Below are positions 48,821-62,033 of a DNA stretch of 64,000 nucleotides, piece by piece (the first letter of the stretch is position 1; every line of letters starts with the position of its first letter). This DNA is from a virus. The DNA is taken from positions 62,001 to 126,000 of the IMG/VR virus record IMGVR_UViG_3300042389_001478. One strand, given 5' to 3'. The notes below the pieces were generated by a model. It ran no database searches. It was not told the DNA's origin and saw only the letters and a program-made list of their open reading frames with translations. The translations under genes were made by a program, and so were the position numbers.

Positions 48821-49737
48821 AGAACAAAAGCCTCCGTATTAGCATTAATCATTAACTTGTTTATATCTCGTGAAAACGTATCGAAATTAAAAACCTTATT
48901 AGCTTCGGAAGAAAAAACTTCTTTTTCTGCATCTGGTATTGTTAATAGATCTTTTATATTCTCCACAAGATCATTAACAGAGTCTACTAATATTAATCCA
49001 GGAAGATTATAGTCGTTTGACATCATCGGAGTTTTTAGAGATACCCCAACACAACCAGAAGAGATGGCACATAATAAATTCGATATATTATGCTCCGCTA
49101 AATCAATACATATTTTATATTCGTTGAATTGATTGTTAATAAATTCTGGACTATTAACCCCAGAAGTCATTACCTCACAAGTATAACCCTTTGACATCAA
49201 GGCTTGGTAAAGCTGGTGGTTGTGGGGTAAATTTTCGAAATTTAATATGAGAACATCTTTTCTTTCTGACGGAGCCTTTGATATGGCAAAATTTTTAGGA
49301 ATCCCGTACTTCATAGTTATAGATCGACCCTGAAGGTTCCAAGAGTCCTTTGATGATTCACTAAAGAATATTTTTGTTTCTCTTGCTAGCCTCTGACCCA
49401 TTAACAAAGCATCCTCTTTTTTAATATATGGCGGCTTATATGAGTGAGTAAAAATTAAAGAATTAATATGCCATTGTTTTAGGTTTTTTGAAGTAAATTC
49501 CACAATATTACTAGTACAATATAGGTTGTAGTTATACAGATCTGTGTGGGTGGGTGGAAGATCTATGACATTTGGAAGATTATAATTGGTCTTGTTTTCT
49601 CCAAATATATAGTAGTTATGCTCAGAAAGACTCATTAGCATCACATCAAATAAATTATTTTGTGGATAGTAAACCACATTATAATTATCTTTAGAAAATT
49701 TTTGCAAAACATTCCCGGTAATAAAACTTAAATACAT
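48817..49737 (-). CDS. GT-B-type glycosyltransferase-like protein
   Basis: A 306-residue protein. The second half contains ILNFENLPHNHQLYQALMSK and EHNISNLLCAISSGCVGVSL, followed by PMMSN and GLILVDSVNDLVENIKDLL. This is the shape of the GT4 C-terminal donor domain, where E-x7-E precedes a small-residue turn. Here the second glutamate is not conserved. The N-terminal half is a Rossmann-like acceptor domain without a signal peptide. It is coupled to the neighbouring GT4 gene by a 10-base overlap. Confidence 0.55.
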   Translation of the reverse strand: MYLSFITGNVLQKFSKDNYNVVYYPQNNLFDVMLMSLSEHNYYIFGENKTNYNLPNVIDLPPTHTDLYNYNLYCTSNIVEFTSKNLKQWHINSLIFTHSYKPPYIKKEDALLMGQRLARETKIFFSESSKDSWNLQGRSITMKYGIPKNFAISKAPSERKDVLILNFENLPHNHQLYQALMSKGYTCEVMTSGVNSPEFINNQFNEYKICIDLAEHNISNLLCAISSGCVGVSLKTPMMSNDYNLPGLILVDSVNDLVENIKDLLTIPDAEKEVFSSEANKVFNFDTFSRDINKLMINANTEAFVL

Positions 49738-50852
49738 AACTTGCTTCCTATAGAGGAGTAACTAAATCGATCCATGCTCGAAAGACCAAGATCTCTTTTT
49801 TCTTCCAGCTTTTTTCTATTTTCCTTATGCATCTGATAAACCAGCTTCATTTTTTCAATCAAATCATAAATATTAATCCTGTACCAGAATTCATTAGCAT
49901 TATAAATATCGAAATCTTTAGATAAAGTTCTTTGATCAACAATAACTGGTGTTTTAGAACTATTAACAACAAAACCGTTTTCGCCATTGATATAGTCGAT
50001 CATACCAGTATTGTCTGTAACAATAGGAGTCTTTCCTAAACACAATGCTTCTGCTACTGGCCTACAGAATGCTTCTCCGTAAGACGGAGAGACGAGACAA
50101 TCACAAGAATTATGTAGTCCAATTATATCACTATATGATAGTTTTTCGGTGATAATAATTTCTTTTTTATATCTTTGATTAATATTAAGTTTTTGTTTAA
50201 TTTCGTTTAAGTCTTTTTCAATAGTTTTTAATGAATCATTAGGTGACATTCCCGGTATGCTAGTTTTAAGTATCAGAGATACTGGCTGATTAATGTCAAA
50301 AGCTAAATGAAATGCAGTAATTAAATCTTTAATATTTTTACGTTCTACATACTCACCAATAAAATAGAATTTAAAAGTTTTATTTACTATGGGGTTGAAA
50401 TCAAGCTTATGACTAGTATACTTCTTTATATTCTCAATATCTAGTGGTTGAGAAATTGACTTAATTGGCTTTGTTACCCCAGATTTTATTAAACATTTTT
50501 TCTCTTGTTCACTGGGAACCCAAATTTCATCCATCTGGTTGATGTTTGAGACGCATCTAGAGTTAGAAATATTATTAGTTTCTAGGACGAATAATCCGAT
50601 ATTTTTCTTAAATCTGCCATCATAAAATAAACAATGTGGAAGAGTTTTTTGTATAACAACATCGTATTGATCATACACGGAGTTTTCATACCCAAGAAGA
50701 TCACTATCTAGTTCATTAGATGCATTTCCAGCTAAAAAGATCGGTCTTGTAGTTAATTCTTTTACCTGTGTTGCAACAGCTTTGATATAGCTTTGTGTCG
50801 CTAGTCCCCAGCCGTCTTGCTGTCTATAGGGTCCTATAAAAAGTACACTCAT
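49728..50852 (-). CDS. GT4-family glycosyltransferase
   Basis: A 374-residue retaining glycosyltransferase. The N-terminus MSVLFIGPYRQQDGWGLATQ has the GxGxx acceptor-domain loop form. Residues 160-175 (KFYFIGEYVERKNI) match the strand and R(K)N motif before the donor domain. EAFCRPVAE gives the EX7E pair E260 and E268, followed by ALCLGKTPIVTDNTGM. It would transfer a sugar from a nucleotide donor to an unknown acceptor (DNA base, capsid or host glycan). It starts inside an ATGA overlap with the upstream 555-residue GT4. Confidence 0.8.
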   Translation of the reverse strand: MSVLFIGPYRQQDGWGLATQSYIKAVATQVKELTTRPIFLAGNASNELDSDLLGYENSVYDQYDVVIQKTLPHCLFYDGRFKKNIGLFVLETNNISNSRCVSNINQMDEIWVPSEQEKKCLIKSGVTKPIKSISQPLDIENIKKYTSHKLDFNPIVNKTFKFYFIGEYVERKNIKDLITAFHLAFDINQPVSLILKTSIPGMSPNDSLKTIEKDLNEIKQKLNINQRYKKEIIITEKLSYSDIIGLHNSCDCLVSPSYGEAFCRPVAEALCLGKTPIVTDNTGMIDYINGENGFVVNSSKTPVIVDQRTLSKDFDIYNANEFWYRINIYDLIEKMKLVYQMHKENRKKLEEKRDLGLSSMDRFSYSSIGSKLCI

Positions 50853-52516
50853 TGTAGTTTTTCTTTCATATTTGCATATTCTATGAAGTCTTCGTTTCGT
50901 AATTGTCTTAAGTCGTTCTTTGCGTTTTGAGCAAGGTTGTTGTTTGAAATAATGTTATTCAAAACATCCAAAGCCTTAGAAATATTGTATGGCTCGGTAT
51001 GCATTCCATTAATAGCAAAACCATAGTCTAGATCTTTTATCATGTTTAACAAAATCATAGATGATGCCATTTGATGATTTGGCAAATGCTTAGAAACTAG
51101 TGTGGTTAAAATATCATACGCAGTATTAGCCTGTGGTAATTCTTTGATGGTGTCTAGCGTTAATAGATTTTCATGCCATTTACCTTGTAATCCAGTTAGC
51201 TTAACAGAGTCGAAGTAATCCTCCCACCTGCGAGCTATATCGTCCCAATTATAGTGTTGCTCAGTTAGTTTTCTGGTTTCGAAGCTTTTTTGCTCTCGTA
51301 AAAACTCTGGCATCTTACTAAAATCATACAATACTTCGACTAAATGATCGTTGTCGGGATATACTCTAATAGCTTTGGTTTCTAGTTCTTTAAAGTATTG
51401 ATTAATCTTAATCGGATATCCGTTTAGTTTTCTAACAACATCGCTCATAGCGCTATAGTCCACAGAAGCTATAGGAACACCACATGCTCCGGCTTCCACT
51501 TGTGGCATTCCAAAACCCTCACAAATAGCATATTGAACATAGATATCAAAGGAATTAATAATGGTGGCTAAGGTTTGTGATGTTACTCCTGAGCTAACAT
51601 TCGGCATAGAAAAAGACTTTTGGCCGCATCTTGGGCAAAAACTAACAGGATGTTGATATAAACAAGGAGCAAAATATGCGCAATTTTTACAATTATAGGT
51701 GAACAATACTCTGTTTCCTACCTTGTATTCTTTTAATAATTGCGGTAGATCCCAGCCAGCGTCGGGGTAGCTTGTATGTAGATATAGATAAGTATTCTTG
51801 CCCTTTTCGTCTCCTTCTTTTTCAAATTTCTCTAATAGGCTTTTTAAAGAAGCAAATAATTCTGGCATGAGTTTGCGTTTCTGGTTTCTCATAACAGAAC
51901 CAATAATAAATGATGATTCACTAAGACCTAGGGCCTTTTTAACGAATTGCTTATTCCCGATGATATTAAATGTTGCCAGGTCTACTCCTGGCGAAGTTGT
52001 ACTGATATATTTAATTTTATTATTGCTTTGCTGCAGCAGCGTGTCTCTGCCGAAGTCTGAGTATGTGAATATCGCATCCGCATGAAGAAATGTATCTATC
52101 CATTCTTCTTGTTGTGGTGCCGAATCAACTGTTGGCATTAGAACCCAATGATAGAAAGGTCTTAGAGGAGAAAACTGTTGATAAGAACTCATCCAGTAGT
52201 CTCTAACATCAAACACTATATCTGGTTGAAAATCTAATAGTACTCTCTCGAATCTCCATCTTCCAAACTGATTTTCGGTTGAACTGCTGTATTCTTTATG
52301 TCTAGGGTCTTTATCGTCAACAGCATTCGCGTAATATTTCCATGTTATACCAACATCCTTAGGATCATTCACTTTGCCATATGATGCAAATTCTGCTATC
52401 TCATATTTGCCAGTGGCGTGAAGTCTTTTAAGTATTTCTTTAGAGTAAGTACCAAAGCCAGAACTTAAAAAGCTAGCCTCAGAGCACATGAGAATCTTTA
52501 GTTTTTTTGATGACAT
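50849..52516 (-). CDS. GT4-family glycosyltransferase with zinc-ribbon insertion
   Basis: A 555-residue protein. KILMCSEASFLSSGFGTYSK at the N-terminus is a GT4 acceptor domain with a glycine loop. EGFGMPQVE (E333 and E341) is the EX7E motif, followed by AGACGVPIASVD. Between the two domains lies an insertion with C276, C279, C285, C294 and C297 (CKNC, CPRC) that looks like a zinc ribbon. The C-terminal 140 residues are helical. No ribosome site is evident before the ATG, which sits just past a GC-rich hairpin. First gene of the glycan cassette after ssb. Confidence 0.8.
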   Translation of the reverse strand: MSSKKLKILMCSEASFLSSGFGTYSKEILKRLHATGKYEIAEFASYGKVNDPKDVGITWKYYANAVDDKDPRHKEYSSSTENQFGRWRFERVLLDFQPDIVFDVRDYWMSSYQQFSPLRPFYHWVLMPTVDSAPQQEEWIDTFLHADAIFTYSDFGRDTLLQQSNNKIKYISTTSPGVDLATFNIIGNKQFVKKALGLSESSFIIGSVMRNQKRKLMPELFASLKSLLEKFEKEGDEKGKNTYLYLHTSYPDAGWDLPQLLKEYKVGNRVLFTYNCKNCAYFAPCLYQHPVSFCPRCGQKSFSMPNVSSGVTSQTLATIINSFDIYVQYAICEGFGMPQVEAGACGVPIASVDYSAMSDVVRKLNGYPIKINQYFKELETKAIRVYPDNDHLVEVLYDFSKMPEFLREQKSFETRKLTEQHYNWDDIARRWEDYFDSVKLTGLQGKWHENLLTLDTIKELPQANTAYDILTTLVSKHLPNHQMASSMILLNMIKDLDYGFAINGMHTEPYNISKALDVLNNIISNNNLAQNAKNDLRQLRNEDFIEYANMKEKLQ

Positions 52517-52576: not shown

Positions 52577-52948
52577 TTAAAAGCTGACTACTTCTTCTGC
52601 TGATTCCTTGCTTTTCTTTGAAAGCTTAGTAATCTTAGAAAAATTATTTACACGAACCTTAAGAGAGTTATGCTTAACACCATCCTTCTCCCAAGAGTCG
52701 TTCCTTAATGAGCCTTCGACCAAAACCAAATCACCCTTCTTGAAAGACTGGCCGATGATTTCTGCTCCACTATCCCAGGCTTCACAAGGCACAAAGGTTG
52801 TTACCTTGTCCTTCTCTCCATTAGCCTTAGTGTACTCACGAGATACAGCAACAGTAAAATTGACTACTGAAGTCTGCTTGCCTGCTGTATTAACCACACG
52901 AACTTCTGGATCTCTAGCTAAATTACCGCGTAAAATGTTAATATTCAT
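52577..52948 (-). CDS. ssb: Single-stranded DNA-binding protein
   Basis: A 123-residue OB-fold protein that coats single-stranded DNA at the fork. It begins MNINILRGNLARDPEVR. Typical SSB features follow: VVNFTVAVSREYT, TTFVPCEAWDSGAEII, KKGDLVLVEGSLRNDSW and a short acidic tail ending EEVVSF. The ATG at 52948 is chosen over an in-frame ATG 48 bases upstream, because AAGGAG lies six bases before it and the upstream extension runs through the -10 element of the promoter. The C-terminal tail is acidic but lacks the classic DDDIPF ending. Confidence 0.92.
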   Translation of the reverse strand: MNINILRGNLARDPEVRVVNTAGKQTSVVNFTVAVSREYTKANGEKDKVTTFVPCEAWDSGAEIIGQSFKKGDLVLVEGSLRNDSWEKDGVKHNSLKVRVNNFSKITKLSKKSKESAEEVVSF

Positions 52949-52954
52949 TAACTT

Positions 52955-52960
52955 CTCCTT
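52955..52960 (-). promoter_or_regulatory. Strong ribosome binding site of ssb
   Basis: AAGGAG on the minus strand, six bases before the ATG at 52948. It decides the start of ssb. Confidence 0.85.
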
Positions 52961-52985
52961 GAAAAAAAGACCAATGTACTGAACT

Positions 52986-53013
52986 ATTATAGCCATGACG
53001 CGACGAGCGTCAA
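52986..53013 (-). promoter_or_regulatory. Sigma-70-type promoter for ssb
   Basis: On the minus strand TTGACG (53013-53008) and TATAAT (52991-52986) are separated by 16 bases. The start of transcription would fall near 52979, giving a leader of about 30 bases before the ssb ATG. The -35 overlaps the TGA stop of the polymerase C-half gene. It is the only near-consensus promoter seen in the replication half of the window. Confidence 0.8.
52996..53012 (-). promoter_or_regulatory. Palindrome overlapping the ssb promoter (candidate operator)
   Basis: TGACGC at 53012-53007 and GCGTCA at 53001-52996 form a perfect six-base inverted repeat around five bases. It covers the -35 and most of the spacer. 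A repressor or activator bound here would control ssb. Alternatively it is a short hairpin at the end of the polymerase transcript, though no T run follows. Confidence 0.55.
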
Positions 53014-54638
53014 GTTTTTGGAATATAAGTTTTTTCTACGATAAACGAATCGCCGTTCTTTGATCTGTTGCCTTTGACAATAATAACATTGCCTTGAAAT
53101 AAAATATTTCGATAAGCTTTGTAAGCTTCGGGAAAAAAAATAACAGAATCTAAAACACCAGTACCGTCACTCAGTGTAACAAACGCCATCTCTAATCCAG
53201 GATTTTTACCAGTCTTGGTTTTAGTAACACTTAGGTTATCAATCTCGCCACATAAGATCAGATTGTCACTCATTAGAGATGTCTTAAAATCTTTACATGT
53301 TGTATTTGTCATAGTGATATCATACATATCGACCTTAGAACAAGTAATGCTGCAGCCGAGTATCTCGTCCTCGGTGTCAGAAATCCATTCTGGATTGTCT
53401 TCCAAAGAATGCGGAGGCTTATTAAAGTTATTAATTAGTCCCAATATTATAGATTTTCTATTCTTATTAGACTTTCCGTTGTGATAAAGATCATATAATC
53501 CATCTCCAAGGGATTTATATTTATGTATATTGCCTAGAATAAATTCTGCTTCTTTTTTGGTTAGTTCAGAAGCTAGATTAAGTTCAAACAGCATACATGT
53601 CCTACTTTTATTTAAATAGGATAGCGCCCCACTTTGTATTAATGCTTTTGCGGCAATGGAGTTGATATTCATTAAAACCTGCAGCAGCATTTCTGTCCAG
53701 TTCATTGTATCAAAATCTAAATGCTTAGTATTTTTTATATTACTAAGTTTATCAAATACCGACTGTCCAAATCCTTTAATATCTGTTAGGCCAAAGTATA
53801 TCTTATCATTCTTTAAAATAAATAGTTTATTAAGGTTTCTAATGTCTGGTATTGATACTGAAACATCCATTTCGCTAGCATTTTGAACCAGTTCTTTAAT
53901 TTCTGCTTTTGGGTCAATTTTATCCTTAGCAAATCTTAAATATGAAGCGAAAAAGATCTTAGGGAAATGGGCTTTGGTAAATGCTGACAAATATGCGTTT
54001 ATAGCATAAGATACAGAGTGGGACTTATTGAATGAATACCTCTGAGATTTTTCGATCCATCCGAAAATTTCCTCTGCTTGATCAGCTGATACTGTGCCAA
54101 TTTTTTCGCACCCTTGTATAAACTTAACTTTAATTTTTGCCATTTCTTCAGGCTTCTTTTTCCCAATAGCCTTTCTTAACATGTCTGCTTCTTGCAAATC
54201 AAAGCCAGCAACAGTTTTAGCTATTTCCATTGCCTGTTCTTGATAAATCATCTCTCCATATGTTTCCTTTAAAATAGGTTCCAAAGACGGATGATAATAA
54301 TCTACAGACTCCTGCGCATTCTTCTTGTCTATAAAATGATTAGAAACAGATTTGCCATCTCTAAAAGCCTCAAGACAACCAGGTCTCATAATACTAATTA
54401 AGGCAGAGAGCTGTTCTATATTCTCTGGCTTTAATTTTTTAGCCATAGACTTGCCGAGCCTAGACTCTAGCTGAAAACATCCCTTAGTATTGCCATCAGA
54501 AAGCAATTGCCAAGTTTTTGAACAATCTAAATGAATATGTTCTATGGTTGGATCAAAATTGATATGAATATGCTCATCCGTAGAGTCTGGCATAATATCA
54601 AAAGAGCATCCACAAGAATATTGAAATGTTTTAGGCAT
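53010..54638 (-). CDS. dnaE: DNA polymerase III alpha subunit, C-terminal half
   Basis: A 542-residue protein covering the part of DnaE downstream of the palm. It has a Cys-rich leader (FQYSCGCSFDI, IHLDC), then TWQLLSDGNTKGCFQLESRLG, ISIMRPGCLEAFR, IYQEQAMEIAKTVAGF, EADMLRKAIGKKKPEEM, SFNKSHSVSYAI, helix-hairpin-helix-like repeats, and a C-terminal OB fold (NLILCGEIDNLSVTKTKTGK). It carries the fingers and DNA-binding regions, but no catalytic aspartate; those are in the separate N-half. It overlaps the DnaQ-like gene by eight bases. The split probably gives a two-chain polymerase. Confidence 0.92.
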   Translation of the reverse strand: MPKTFQYSCGCSFDIMPDSTDEHIHINFDPTIEHIHLDCSKTWQLLSDGNTKGCFQLESRLGKSMAKKLKPENIEQLSALISIMRPGCLEAFRDGKSVSNHFIDKKNAQESVDYYHPSLEPILKETYGEMIYQEQAMEIAKTVAGFDLQEADMLRKAIGKKKPEEMAKIKVKFIQGCEKIGTVSADQAEEIFGWIEKSQRYSFNKSHSVSYAINAYLSAFTKAHFPKIFFASYLRFAKDKIDPKAEIKELVQNASEMDVSVSIPDIRNLNKLFILKNDKIYFGLTDIKGFGQSVFDKLSNIKNTKHLDFDTMNWTEMLLQVLMNINSIAAKALIQSGALSYLNKSRTCMLFELNLASELTKKEAEFILGNIHKYKSLGDGLYDLYHNGKSNKNRKSIILGLINNFNKPPHSLEDNPEWISDTEDEILGCSITCSKVDMYDITMTNTTCKDFKTSLMSDNLILCGEIDNLSVTKTKTGKNPGLEMAFVTLSDGTGVLDSVIFFPEAYKAYRNILFQGNVIIVKGNRSKNGDSFIVEKTYIPKT

Positions 54639-55329
54639 GGCTAGCGGTGAAAGAGTCTTTGAATTTTATTTTATTGCTTAGATTACGATGGAGCTTAAGG
54701 AATCGAATTAGGATATCGGCGCAGTCCTTAACGTCTTTTAAGGCATCGTGTGCTCCAACCTTAGAGATTCCAAAATAGTCTCTTAATGAATCTAGGGTAT
54801 AACTCTTTAAGTCTCCATTATTTTCAAACCAATAAAAAATTAAATTCATGATATCAACAACATCTCTAGGATAAAAGATATCGGTCTTTGATTCTTTATT
54901 TACGTTACCATATTTATTGCTTAGTCTATCAACTATTGGTAGATCAAAACGATAAATATTATAGCCAGCAGCTATTGGAGCACTAAATTGACTTTTTTTA
55001 GATGATCTGCTGTGATACATTTCTAAATAGTTGGTAAACATCTTCCAAGATTGCTCTTGTGAAGGATACTGTTTCCAGTCTTTTAGAATGTCATCCTTAG
55101 AACATCCCTTAACTTTAGCATGAAAGTCCAGAATATCTGTTGTATATTCATAATTTTCGTCTTTTGCCAGAACATCTGGCTTAAAGAAAATATTAAATTC
55201 AGACTTTGGTACTATTTCGAGTTTAATAGGATCAATAATAACCGAGGCTATCTGAACCGGACTGCAAATCCTGGGATCAGATCCGTCTGTTTCAAAATCA
55301 AAAACACAGATTTTATTATAGTTAATCAT
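54631..55329 (-). CDS. DnaQ-like 3'-5' exonuclease (DEDDh)
   Basis: A 232-residue proofreading-type exonuclease. ExoI is VFDFETDGSD (D11, E13). ExoII is AGYNIYRFDLPIV (D129). ExoIII is VGAHDALKDVKDCADIL (H194, D199). All five DEDDh residues are present. Its position between the two halves of the polymerase gene suggests it serves the phage polymerase, as DnaQ serves DnaE. It starts four bases after the small upstream gene. Confidence 0.9.
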   Translation of the reverse strand: MINYNKICVFDFETDGSDPRICSPVQIASVIIDPIKLEIVPKSEFNIFFKPDVLAKDENYEYTTDILDFHAKVKGCSKDDILKDWKQYPSQEQSWKMFTNYLEMYHSRSSKKSQFSAPIAAGYNIYRFDLPIVDRLSNKYGNVNKESKTDIFYPRDVVDIMNLIFYWFENNGDLKSYTLDSLRDYFGISKVGAHDALKDVKDCADILIRFLKLHRNLSNKIKFKDSFTASHA

Positions 55330-55333
55330 TAGT

Positions 55334-55531
55334 TTAGTCGTTTACTTCTACTTCTATTAGTGGTAAAACTTGGATACGTTGAGCTTGATCCGACAGCAAT
55401 GCTGCATTAATAGCCTTACAGCAACTAACTCTTTCTTCTGTCAGCTTTATATATTCATTAACCGCGCCCTGGTCATTTTTTAGTTTAAATGTCTGACCGA
55501 TAGCAACTTCCATAAACTTTTTAATCGCCAT
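55334..55531 (-). CDS. Small hypothetical protein between polymerase halves
   Basis: A 65-residue protein with a short beta-barrel-like pattern (FMEVAIGQTFKLKNDQGAVNEYIKL and a C-terminal IQVLPLIEVEV). Similar small proteins with an F..L..G..F.......Y.K pattern occur in phage genomes without known function. Two bases separate it from the polymerase N-half, so it is co-translated. It might bridge the polymerase halves, but nothing in the sequence proves this. Confidence 0.65.
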   Translation of the reverse strand: MAIKKFMEVAIGQTFKLKNDQGAVNEYIKLTEERVSCCKAINAALLSDQAQRIQVLPLIEVEVND

Positions 55532-55533
55532 AT

Positions 55534-57408
55534 TTATTCTCCTGTTCTTAAAATATCTCGAATAGTCATAATTTTATCTAACATTGCTACGCCTAAAATA
55601 TCAAATTTAATTATACCCAATGATTCTAAATCTTGCATCTCCATGCCCGCTATCATCTGTTCATTTTTTGAATCATAAACCATCGGACACGATACGTTCA
55701 AGGGGTTGGCACTAATTGCTATACCAGCGGCGTGTTTGGACTGATTAGACTTCGTGCCCTCCAATCTTATAGCCTGCTCAAATCTTTTTGCAAGCGGGCC
55801 TTGTAGTTCATTCTTTTCGTCAATAAAGCACCATTCTTTGAGTTTATCTGGCTGATTTTCCAAAGCCCATCTTATAATTGATGCTTCGCCGGTCTCTTCT
55901 TTCATTTCTTGAAGATCATCGGCAATCTTAGACTCATCTGGGATACTTTTGGTAATTTTGTTCATCTCATCGAAAGAAATATTGCCATATACTCTTAATA
56001 CGTCTTTGATAGCTCCTCTGCCTTTAATGGTATTGAACGTTATCATCTGAGACACCTTATCTTGACCATAACATTGTTTAATATATTCAATAACATTTTC
56101 TCTTTTGTTAATTGGTACGTCAACATCGATATCTGGCATTGAGATATGATCTTTACTATTACGACCAGCATTATAAAATCTGTCAAAGAGGAGATTATAT
56201 TTAATTGGATCTATGCTAGTTATGCCAATCAAATATGAGACCAAACAACCTGCAGCACTTCCTCTTCCAGGTCCTGGCAGCCAATTATTAGATCTCACAT
56301 AGTTAACAATATCTTGGACAATTAAAAAGTAGCTTGATAAATCGGCACCCTGCAAAACATCAAGCTCGTACTTAATTCTATCAACATATTTTTGATGGTC
56401 TTCTTTTGGAATATCGTTAGCAATTTTTTCTCTCCAACCCTTTCTACATAATTCTCGTAGATATTCGGCATCATCCGAATTATTAGGACAGGGGAACGGA
56501 GGTAGTTGTGGCTTGTCTAGAATATTGTATTCTTCACATAAATTAGCCACAAAATTGGTATTTTCGATTTCCTCATCTGTATGAAATGATCGTATTTCTT
56601 CCTGGGATAATATATGAAAGTTATCAGAAGTAAAAAAGCATCCAAGAGGAACTTCCTCGTCGTTTGTGATCTTTCTGCTGATCTCTGGGAAGGTTGTTTT
56701 TAAATTATTGCACAGCAACACTCTCTGATCAATTGCATCCTCCTTACGGCAATAATGAGCGTCTGGCGTGGCTATGATCTTAGTGGCAGTCTGCTTGGAA
56801 AGTTCTCTCATCGCATCGGTCAATATCTTTTGGATTGGCGAGTTTTCTGAGTCCATGAGTTGAGCCTCAAGGAAAAAGTTGTCTTTTCCAAAGATCTCCT
56901 TATATAGACCAATTTGTTGAATACCAATTTCTTTCCAGTCTGGATTTAGGCTTTCTCCTAACATAATTTTATCGGCTATCGTGGAGCCAGCATGTCCACA
57001 AAAACCAATAATATTATTGTTGCAAAACTGGGCTAGTGTCGATAGATTAAGTCTTGGTTTATGGTAATAAAAGTCTGGCCTGTTGGATTCCGAAGTTATT
57101 CTTATTAAGCTTTTCCATCCTTCAAAGTTTTTTGCTAATATAACAAAATGACTAAGGTCTCTATTTTCTTTGCTTTGTATTGATGGGTCATCATTGCAAA
57201 TATATAGCTCACAACCTAGGATCGGTTTGATTCCATGCTTTTTCATTTCGGTATAAAACTTTACAGTTCCGGCGATATTGCCATGATCTGTTAGGGCACA
57301 GGAAGAAGCTCCAATTTCTTGACATCTTTCAGCCATTGTTTTTGGCTGAGATAATCCGTCCAATAAGCTATACATCGAATGACAATGGAGAGGGGTGTAA
57401 TTTTTCAT
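55534..57408 (-). CDS. dnaE: DNA polymerase III alpha subunit, N-terminal half (PHP + palm)
   Basis: A 624-residue protein. The PHP domain starts PLHCHSMYSLLDG and keeps the metal-site set H8, H10, D17, H42, E67, H87, C137, D216 and H218, as in DnaE proteins with an active PHP exonuclease. The palm begins PGPGRGSAAGCLVSYLIG, with catalytic D428 and D430 in MPDIDVDVP and D603 in GIIKFDILG. The chain ends about 20 residues after D603, where normal DnaE proteins continue into the fingers. No intein residues are seen at the end. ATGA overlap couples it to the upstream nuclease gene. Together with the gene at 53010 it makes one full DnaE. Confidence 0.94.
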   Translation of the reverse strand: MKNYTPLHCHSMYSLLDGLSQPKTMAERCQEIGASSCALTDHGNIAGTVKFYTEMKKHGIKPILGCELYICNDDPSIQSKENRDLSHFVILAKNFEGWKSLIRITSESNRPDFYYHKPRLNLSTLAQFCNNNIIGFCGHAGSTIADKIMLGESLNPDWKEIGIQQIGLYKEIFGKDNFFLEAQLMDSENSPIQKILTDAMRELSKQTATKIIATPDAHYCRKEDAIDQRVLLCNNLKTTFPEISRKITNDEEVPLGCFFTSDNFHILSQEEIRSFHTDEEIENTNFVANLCEEYNILDKPQLPPFPCPNNSDDAEYLRELCRKGWREKIANDIPKEDHQKYVDRIKYELDVLQGADLSSYFLIVQDIVNYVRSNNWLPGPGRGSAAGCLVSYLIGITSIDPIKYNLLFDRFYNAGRNSKDHISMPDIDVDVPINKRENVIEYIKQCYGQDKVSQMITFNTIKGRGAIKDVLRVYGNISFDEMNKITKSIPDESKIADDLQEMKEETGEASIIRWALENQPDKLKEWCFIDEKNELQGPLAKRFEQAIRLEGTKSNQSKHAAGIAISANPLNVSCPMVYDSKNEQMIAGMEMQDLESLGIIKFDILGVAMLDKIMTIRDILRTGE

Positions 57409-58403
57409 GCGGTGCTTCCGGGTGCTTTGTAGTGTCCAATACTATAACCCGGAGTCTGGTATTCGTCAATCACGGTTTCTGTGCCTTTTGTGTCTATATC
57501 GTGTTTTACTTGCTCACACTTGGTCATGCATTTATCTTTTGGTATTAGCTGGTTATCTCTGTATTCTTTTAGTGGAGTTACCGAGGTATTCTCAAATGTT
57601 GTTTTTCCAAAATGGCATAGCTTAGTACATTTCCAACTCTTGTTAAGTTGGGGTTTTTGTGTATTCTTTATAGTTTCAAATTTGTTCTTTAGCATGATTT
57701 CCGTTTTAAAAAGATCGCTTTTATCAAAACAAATAGTAAATGCTCCGCCATCATTAATAAAATCAATAGATATCATTACATGCTCAATCTCTGGATACAG
57801 GTGTTGTATCGCATAATGATATATTCTCAACTGAGGATCATTTTGCAATTTTTCATGAGTTTTTTCTTCTCCGGTTGCCCAATCTAGCCTTCTTCCGGTT
57901 TTCCAATCTATTACTTCTAAAGTCTTATCGTTTATTTTAGTGATAAGATCAATGGTACCCTTGATTGCTAAATTGCCTTCTAGTAATCCCTCTTTAGTAT
58001 CATATTTATAAGAAGACCATGGTTTTTTAATTTCAATGTCAAAATGCTGCTCTGGTTGCACTATGTTCCTATTCCTTGGGTCAAACATACCACCATTATA
58101 TTCTAGGGCTTTGTAAACCCATCCGTGACAATCTTTATAGTCTTTCAGATCCCATTCGTGGTGAGTAAATCTAGACGTATAATACTTATATACTTTTTCT
58201 ATGATTGTGTTTAGGCTATAGCTATTAATGTCTACGGCCCCCACAACATCATCTTCAAAAACATCTATCTTGTTTTGCTGATTAAGTTTGACATATGCCA
58301 ATATTTCTAGAACCTTATGTACTACAGTACCTTTGTCCGCTTTTTTATTAGACGGAGATCTCAAGCCAAGGATATATTCGAAAAAATATTGCTGAGGGCA
58401 CAT
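57405..58403 (-). CDS. RecB/Cas4-like PD-(D/E)XK nuclease
   Basis: A 332-residue nuclease from the ATG at 58403. Motifs are GTVVHKVLE (H29), IKGTIDLI (D152), LEVIDWKTG (D166, K168) and a QLRIYHYAIQ helix. C2, C259, C263, C292 and C296 could hold an iron-sulfur cluster as in AddB/Cas4 proteins. The true start is probably upstream: in-frame codons before the ATG read YLRSSSYGTHS, matching the usual S-S-L..Y..CP lead-in. No in-frame ATG, GTG or TTG exists there, but an ATT at 58446-58448 has GAGGGG seven bases ahead. It is likely involved in recombination or genome processing. Confidence 0.85.
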   Translation of the reverse strand: MCPQQYFFEYILGLRSPSNKKADKGTVVHKVLEILAYVKLNQQNKIDVFEDDVVGAVDINSYSLNTIIEKVYKYYTSRFTHHEWDLKDYKDCHGWVYKALEYNGGMFDPRNRNIVQPEQHFDIEIKKPWSSYKYDTKEGLLEGNLAIKGTIDLITKINDKTLEVIDWKTGRRLDWATGEEKTHEKLQNDPQLRIYHYAIQHLYPEIEHVMISIDFINDGGAFTICFDKSDLFKTEIMLKNKFETIKNTQKPQLNKSWKCTKLCHFGKTTFENTSVTPLKEYRDNQLIPKDKCMTKCEQVKHDIDTKGTETVIDEYQTPGYSIGHYKAPGSTA

Positions 58404-61619: not shown

Positions 61620-62033
61620 TCAACCTGCTCCTGCTGAACATTTGTTACACTTATATCTATCGAGAGAATCTGTTATTAAAACCGGATTAATATCCTCTGT
61701 TCTGCCACACACCCGGCAGGTTGCCTTAAGCATTCTAAATTTTCTGGCTCTTGGTACTGGGGGTTGAATGGCTAACTTTTTATCAACAGCAATGTCTTCT
61801 CTATGCATATTTAGTTCAGCCATTTGGTCAAACTTATTTTCTCGCAATGGCTTGGCCTTGATATCATGAGTGGCAGAATTTGCCGTCTTTTTCCTTGGCT
61901 TCCTTTTCGGCGGGGTGGTGGAATTATCCGTCCCGTCAGTTGTAGTAGAGGGTTGACCGGCTGGAGGCAACATCGCTTGCAGTAACTGAATCATTTGTTG
62001 TATTTGTTGCGGATCTAGACTTATATTATCCAT
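61620..62033 (-). CDS. Small protein with C-terminal zinc ribbon
   Basis: A 137-residue protein. Residues 8-24 form a Gln/Leu-rich helix. Residues 25-55 are Thr/Pro/Lys-rich and disordered. The C-terminal part has CRVCGR and CNKC about 20 residues apart, a zinc ribbon. It lies directly upstream of the helicase, one base from its start. Possible replication or transcription accessory; the family is not recognised. Confidence 0.65.
   Translation of the reverse strand: MDNISLDPQQIQQMIQLLQAMLPPAGQPSTTTDGTDNSTTPPKRKPRKKTANSATHDIKAKPLRENKFDQMAELNMHREDIAVDKKLAIQPPVPRARKFRMLKATCRVCGRTEDINPVLITDSLDRYKCNKCSAGAG

Follow-up and report, generated by a model that had tools for sequence, protein, structure and literature searches.

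The sequence analyzed here, hereafter the window, comprises 64,000 nucleotides corresponding to positions 62,001 to 126,000 of the IMG/VR record IMGVR_UViG_3300042389_001478, which measures 192 kb as a whole and may be incomplete. On its minus strand lies a block of six genes (Table 1), transcribed in the order PD-(D/E)XK nuclease, DnaE-N, small protein S, exonuclease, DnaE-C and SSB, in which the alpha subunit of DNA polymerase III (DnaE) is encoded by two separate genes. The spacing is tight, since the nuclease and DnaE-N genes overlap by 4 nt, DnaE-N is followed by S after 2 nt and S by the exonuclease after 4 nt, while the exonuclease and DnaE-C genes overlap by 8 nt. The initial annotation had described a DnaE split around a 65-residue gene and a DnaQ-like exonuclease gene, and the coordinates, the Pfam matches and TIGR00594 all agree with that description. 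On the 3' side of the SSB gene there are two glycosyltransferase genes (window 49728-52516, minus strand), both of which also adjoin the split DnaE of a distant relative (L170), and the larger is also found near the split DnaE of two others (L198 and L205). Elsewhere in the window, a plus-strand open reading frame of 6,899 aa (2580-23279) carries, close to its beginning, a PhageMin_Tail (tape measure) domain; three further very long genes follow (1450, 1858 and 2760 aa), to which no family was assigned.

Table 1. Genes of the conserved block, in order of transcription, with positions in the window.
Feature	Position	Strand	Basis
PD-(D/E)XK (Cas4/RecB-like) nuclease, first gene of the block	57405..58403	-	PF12705 E 4e-18; synteny in relatives
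DnaE-N, PHP + palm of DNA polymerase III alpha, 624 aa	55534..57408	-	PF02811 E 5e-35; PF07733 E 2e-73; TIGR00594 1-572
Small protein S, 65 aa, predicted SH3-like five-strand beta-barrel	55334..55531	-	AlphaFold pLDDT 95; 71-member alignment
Exonuclease, DnaQ-like DEDDh 3'-5', 232 aa, candidate proofreading subunit	54631..55329	-	PF00929 E 8e-9; phrog_192 E 1e-23
DnaE-C, fingers + HHH + OB, 542 aa	53010..54638	-	PF17657 E 6e-48; PF14579; PF01336
SSB, last gene of the block	52577..52996	-	PF00436 E 4e-24; synteny

The break falls in the palm-fingers linker, between residues ~565 and 586 of E. coli alpha (the alignment carries the N-half to ~564 and resumes with the C-half at 586), and therefore leaves whole domains in each chain. 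DnaE-N and DnaE-C cover positions 1-572 and 581-1022 of the 1022 positions of TIGR00594, with a gap of ~8 positions at the junction, and positions 42-614 and 614-1071 of phrog_405. All three catalytic aspartates (D426, D428 and D603, the last within IKFDILG) reside in DnaE-N, which ends 21 residues after D603, matching the distance of about 20 residues given initially; the second gene likewise begins just before the fingers as proposed, with the landmark motif GCFQLES at residues 53-59 of DnaE-C. Approximately 52 residues precede this motif, and ~25 of them have no counterpart in other DnaEs. Taken over the two genes, the PHP domain, the three-Asp palm, the fingers, the HHH and the OB domain of a family C polymerase occur in DnaE order; what is absent is the single continuous chain, a usual but not strictly defining trait of DnaE, as two frames are present in all members of the clade while a single frame is found in the bacterial and most of the phage DnaEs examined. 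The palm catalytic residues are invariant across 39 N-halves, one of them at 28% identity. The PHP metal-ligand positions, assigned according to the known family, are intact in the window and in nearly all of these N-halves, the exceptions being L197, which has lost the metal ligands and retained the palm, and a few late-starting rows at the first two positions. The AlphaFold model of DnaE-C (pLDDT 87) matched the PolIII alpha structure 4iqj (Taq alpha) in Foldseek with an E-value of 2e-20 over ~530 columns, and the poor overall superposition is probably explained by a different domain orientation when the N-half is missing.

The gene between the halves bears the DEDDh signature of the DnaQ/epsilon-type class, with the Exo I, II and III motifs present in 91, 93 and 94 of 94 distinct homologues, respectively, and it matches a family annotated as 'DNA polymerase exonuclease subunit' (phrog_192); it is probably the proofreader. 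In two loci, DUF1559 pilin-like and ThyX-like genes lie between the exonuclease and DnaE-C (L040:5593-6576; L047:5806-6879). Regarding S, only C37 and C38 are invariant in the 71-member alignment, and this pair is conserved down to 20% identity. Pfam and PDB searches with S returned no useful match, Foldseek gave weak Tudor/SH3-like matches (none at E <0.001), and phrog_2183, of unknown function, was matched by 26 of the 71 small proteins. Since S is always placed after DnaE-N, it could be read, at a weak level, as an accessory polymerase subunit.

DnaE-C opens with a segment that we refer to as the Cys cap, consisting of a CGC motif (C9 and C11) and a third cysteine, C39. C9, G10, C11 and C39 are invariant in 73 sequences, all 98 distinct C-halves start with CGCxF followed by the third Cys in C..[TV]W, and the three cysteines are conserved to ~36% identity. 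The motif was absent from the unsplit DnaE junctions inspected. AlphaFold predicts a beta-hairpin at residues 4-15 of DnaE-C with CGC at its tip, and a zinc knuckle has four metal ligands where three invariant cysteines are seen here; the hairpin probably acts as a zinc-binding or otherwise stabilizing cap in place of the linker. The cap and the Cys-Cys pair of S are both additions to the initial annotation, and their invariance points to selection.

The same split, which the initial annotation had recommended looking for in other phages, proved to be widespread in IMG/VR and in contigs from cellular genomes. Scanning IMG/VR with DnaE-C gave 402 candidate relatives, and the best 80 of the 402 were all broken at the same place and kept the six-gene order wherever the available sequence reached. 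Together with further scans from a divergent member and of cellular genome contigs (MAGs), the collection reached 162 loci, some of them on contigs included twice, and 98 different C-half proteins. Because the best 80 loci and the 98 distinct C-halves share one arrangement, the split is not a chance event, and an assembly error is ruled out by an identical break in >160 loci. Moreover, 12 of 12 records, whose completeness is not certified, contained exactly one palm gene (frame of 553-645 aa) and exactly one fingers gene (537-563 aa). The split members form one clade in the phylogenetic tree (support 90/83), and their nearest neighbor is an unsplit phage enzyme, L206, with a support of 100/99 for the join. 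The lineage carrying the split is large and uncultured, and its phages are mostly aquatic. No sequence with ≥60% identity to either half was found among 50,697 phage records; many of the top 'phage' matches in the databases (Y1, SA 1306 Kay and fecal scaffolds) resemble fragments of bacterial chromosomes and were excluded as phage precedents.

Deeper relatives keep the break with other surroundings. L197 and L198 have the same break, a C-half at ~36% identity starting MIFDCGCEF...FQCPKVW, and an S homologue immediately after DnaE-N; in L198, this homologue was matched by an S HMM built without it (E 7e-5), and HNH-type genes adjoining the exonuclease lie between the halves. L205 shows the same break with RNase HII and zinc-ribbon genes between the halves (C-half start NNCTC...LECKAPYDLL). 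L170, from a contig in the bin of a Phycisphaerales MAG, is a stand-alone C-half (FKSCKC...LDCAATW); it shares the SSB and glycosyltransferase neighbors, no exonuclease or N-half is found upstream of it on that contig, and the MAG encodes its own DnaE as a single frame of 1220 aa. As the split persists in these loci although different genes separate or precede the halves, an exonuclease in between is not a requirement. It follows that the single translational unit of proofreading and polymerase parts proposed initially holds for the window and nearly all close relatives, in which the exonuclease and DnaE-C genes overlap or lie ≤50 nt apart in 91 of 96 cases, but does not extend to L197/L198, L205 and L170. 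The break and the Cys cap thus co-occur and are old, while S plus an exonuclease in the gap characterize the crown group plus L197/L198.

Two-gene phage DnaEs were already known, once with a break at the palm-fingers linker, and what is new is a lineage-wide variant; the lineage, the Cys cap and the operon were not described in any paper found in the open-licence literature. The closest precedent is Rossellomorea phage phiT1 (PV767480; gp20 and gp18), whose two DnaE genes also part at the palm-fingers linker and flank a tiny gene. It has no Cys cap and no exonuclease in the gap, however, and its small gene is unrelated. Its position was unresolved in a first, narrower tree; with wider sampling phiT1 falls among unsplit phage DnaEs, and a single clade with the window lineage is disfavored (AU p 0.025), so that its split is probably independent. 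The group 2.2 jumbo phages carry a minimal PolIII alpha split into two genes and expected to reassemble unspliced, in which distant genes encode NTP-binding and Mg/template-binding parts without other PolIII domains, accompanied by a family B replicase (Iyer et al., 2021; PMC7824862). The window form differs in keeping the PHP and OB domains, in sharing one operon and in being the sole polymerase found; membership in this minimal-core class is ruled out by the PHP domain, the adjacent genes and the lack of a PolB in the record. Two adjacent DnaE-related genes have also been reported in Microbacterium cluster EF phages (PMC7302621), and in one of them, OverHedge (gp55/gp56), gene lengths and the fingers match place the break between PHP and palm rather than between palm and fingers. 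The breaks of KLEB27-3 and MMB025 look to be of endonuclease or intron type and lie at other sites, and that of Jayan is inside the palm, so none of these is the same arrangement. In Bacillus phage G the DnaE is also in pieces (gp329, gp330 and gp339; L196:5246-8554 and L188:3363-5183), where gp329 holds the PHP domain with an intein-like insert at GPGRG/SAAG and ends before the DIDVD motif, gp330 is a homing endonuclease and gp339 runs from KFDILG through the fingers. Compared with the E. coli Pol III core (alpha-epsilon-theta), which likewise pairs a DnaE alpha with a separate DnaQ-type proofreader, the window alpha has two chains instead of one and is accompanied by S, an unrelated SH3-like small protein.

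Considering that DnaE is a classic intein host, the two halves might be joined into one chain by a split intein acting in trans or by intron splicing. Cyanobacterial DnaEs (Ssp/Npu) are also encoded by two genes, and there a split intein joins the two products, at a different site, inside the fingers. Intein- or intron-type breaks do occur elsewhere in the DnaEs of relatives, namely the split intein of the crown members L028 and L043 (inside DnaE-N at GPGRG/SAAG, its parts flanking a nuclease-like ORF), the cis-intein of L170 and the HNH intron-like break of KLEB27-3. However, intein models gave no match in either window half at E <=0.1, although the intein N-terminal model, as a positive control, detected the split inteins of L028 (E 1.5e-8) and L043 (E 7e-7), which bears out the initial reading that the junction carries no intein motifs. 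Besides, the short stretch of DnaE-N past its last Asp is too small for an N-intein, a search of the window and four relatives with Rfam came back without an intron, and none would fit where only 2 and 4 nt separate the genes and the last two, exonuclease and DnaE-C, overlap by 8 nt. The window thus belongs to neither the split-intein nor the intron-interrupted class of DnaEs, and splicing into a single chain is extremely improbable.

Several insertions occur in these loci. Through the split intein, DnaE is spread over three genes in L028:4047-7123 and L043:4074-7134, and likewise in L045. The cis-intein of L170 (4293-6584) sits in the fingers of the stand-alone DnaE-C, at GFNR/C...N/SHAVSYG. 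A frame-breaking insertion of ~1.1 kb near DIDVD (residue ~430) of DnaE-N, containing an endonuclease-like ORF, was found in L094:4400-5544 and L073:5417-6519. The PD-(D/E)XK nuclease has an intein-like in-frame insertion at residue 168/169 in L062:3302-5239 and also in L073 and L086-L092; the frame was read in L062 only, and splicing-domain models match it weakly.

Since the junction has neither intein nor intron, non-covalent assembly of the two chains is inferred as the best reading. The 192-kb record yielded neither a full-length DnaE nor a polymerase of family A or B, and no beta-clamp C-terminal domain either. We consider it highly likely that the phage makes its own replicative DnaE permanently as two polypeptides, PHP plus palm and fingers plus HHH plus OB, which would assemble without splicing. 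The two genes could instead have different jobs, with DnaE-N acting, for example, as an independent PHP nuclease or regulator, a suggestion that the intact PHP metal site and the halves lying unlinked or far apart in some relatives would accommodate; yet the palm aspartates and the fingers residues are all invariant although neither half could polymerize alone, L197 has a degenerate PHP domain with the palm kept, and searches of the record revealed no further replicase, so that such a division of labor is very improbable. The split might also be neutral debris of an old mobile endonuclease, in which the halves happen to work and the cap and S have no role at the junction. The HNH-type genes between the halves of L198 and the endonuclease-interrupted DnaE genes of phage G, KLEB27-3 and Alicyclobacillus phage MMB025 are compatible with such an origin, which nevertheless seems somewhat unlikely given gene ends that are clean and fixed across the lineage and cysteines that, in the cap as in S, have apparently been kept by selection.

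For a two-chain polymerase of this kind, both halves would be co-translated from one operon, which would help assembly, and the native interface of palm and fingers would, by analogy, probably be where DnaE-N and DnaE-C dock. The Cys3 hairpin would cap the free start of DnaE-C and stand in for the missing linker, and proofreading would fall to the DEDDh exonuclease whose gene separates the halves. A more ambitious proposal, which we hold tentatively and regard as rather unlikely, is that the Pol III core has four parts and its alpha obligately two chains, where a metal-binding Cys3 cap and the Cys-Cys protein S would bridge palm and fingers and thereby make assembly with the exonuclease controllable.

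The host is hinted at by the DUF1559-type gene of L040 (PF07596), with its close copy in L047, and by the placement of L170 in a Planctomycetota MAG, as DUF1559 genes are common in Planctomycetota; a host in this phylum would be consistent with both, whereas three close relatives occur in MAGs of Flavobacteriales, Chitinophagia and Alphaproteobacteria.

Annotation pipelines otherwise label such halves as fragments or pseudogenes. Moreover, the palm-fingers break marks a place, found in nature, where polymerases of this type could be divided for engineering or control. Family C replicases usually consist of a single chain with at least about 1000 residues, and a lineage in which fingers that grip the template and the catalytic palm belong to different chains offers a natural test of the need for covalent continuity in the speed and processivity of these enzymes.
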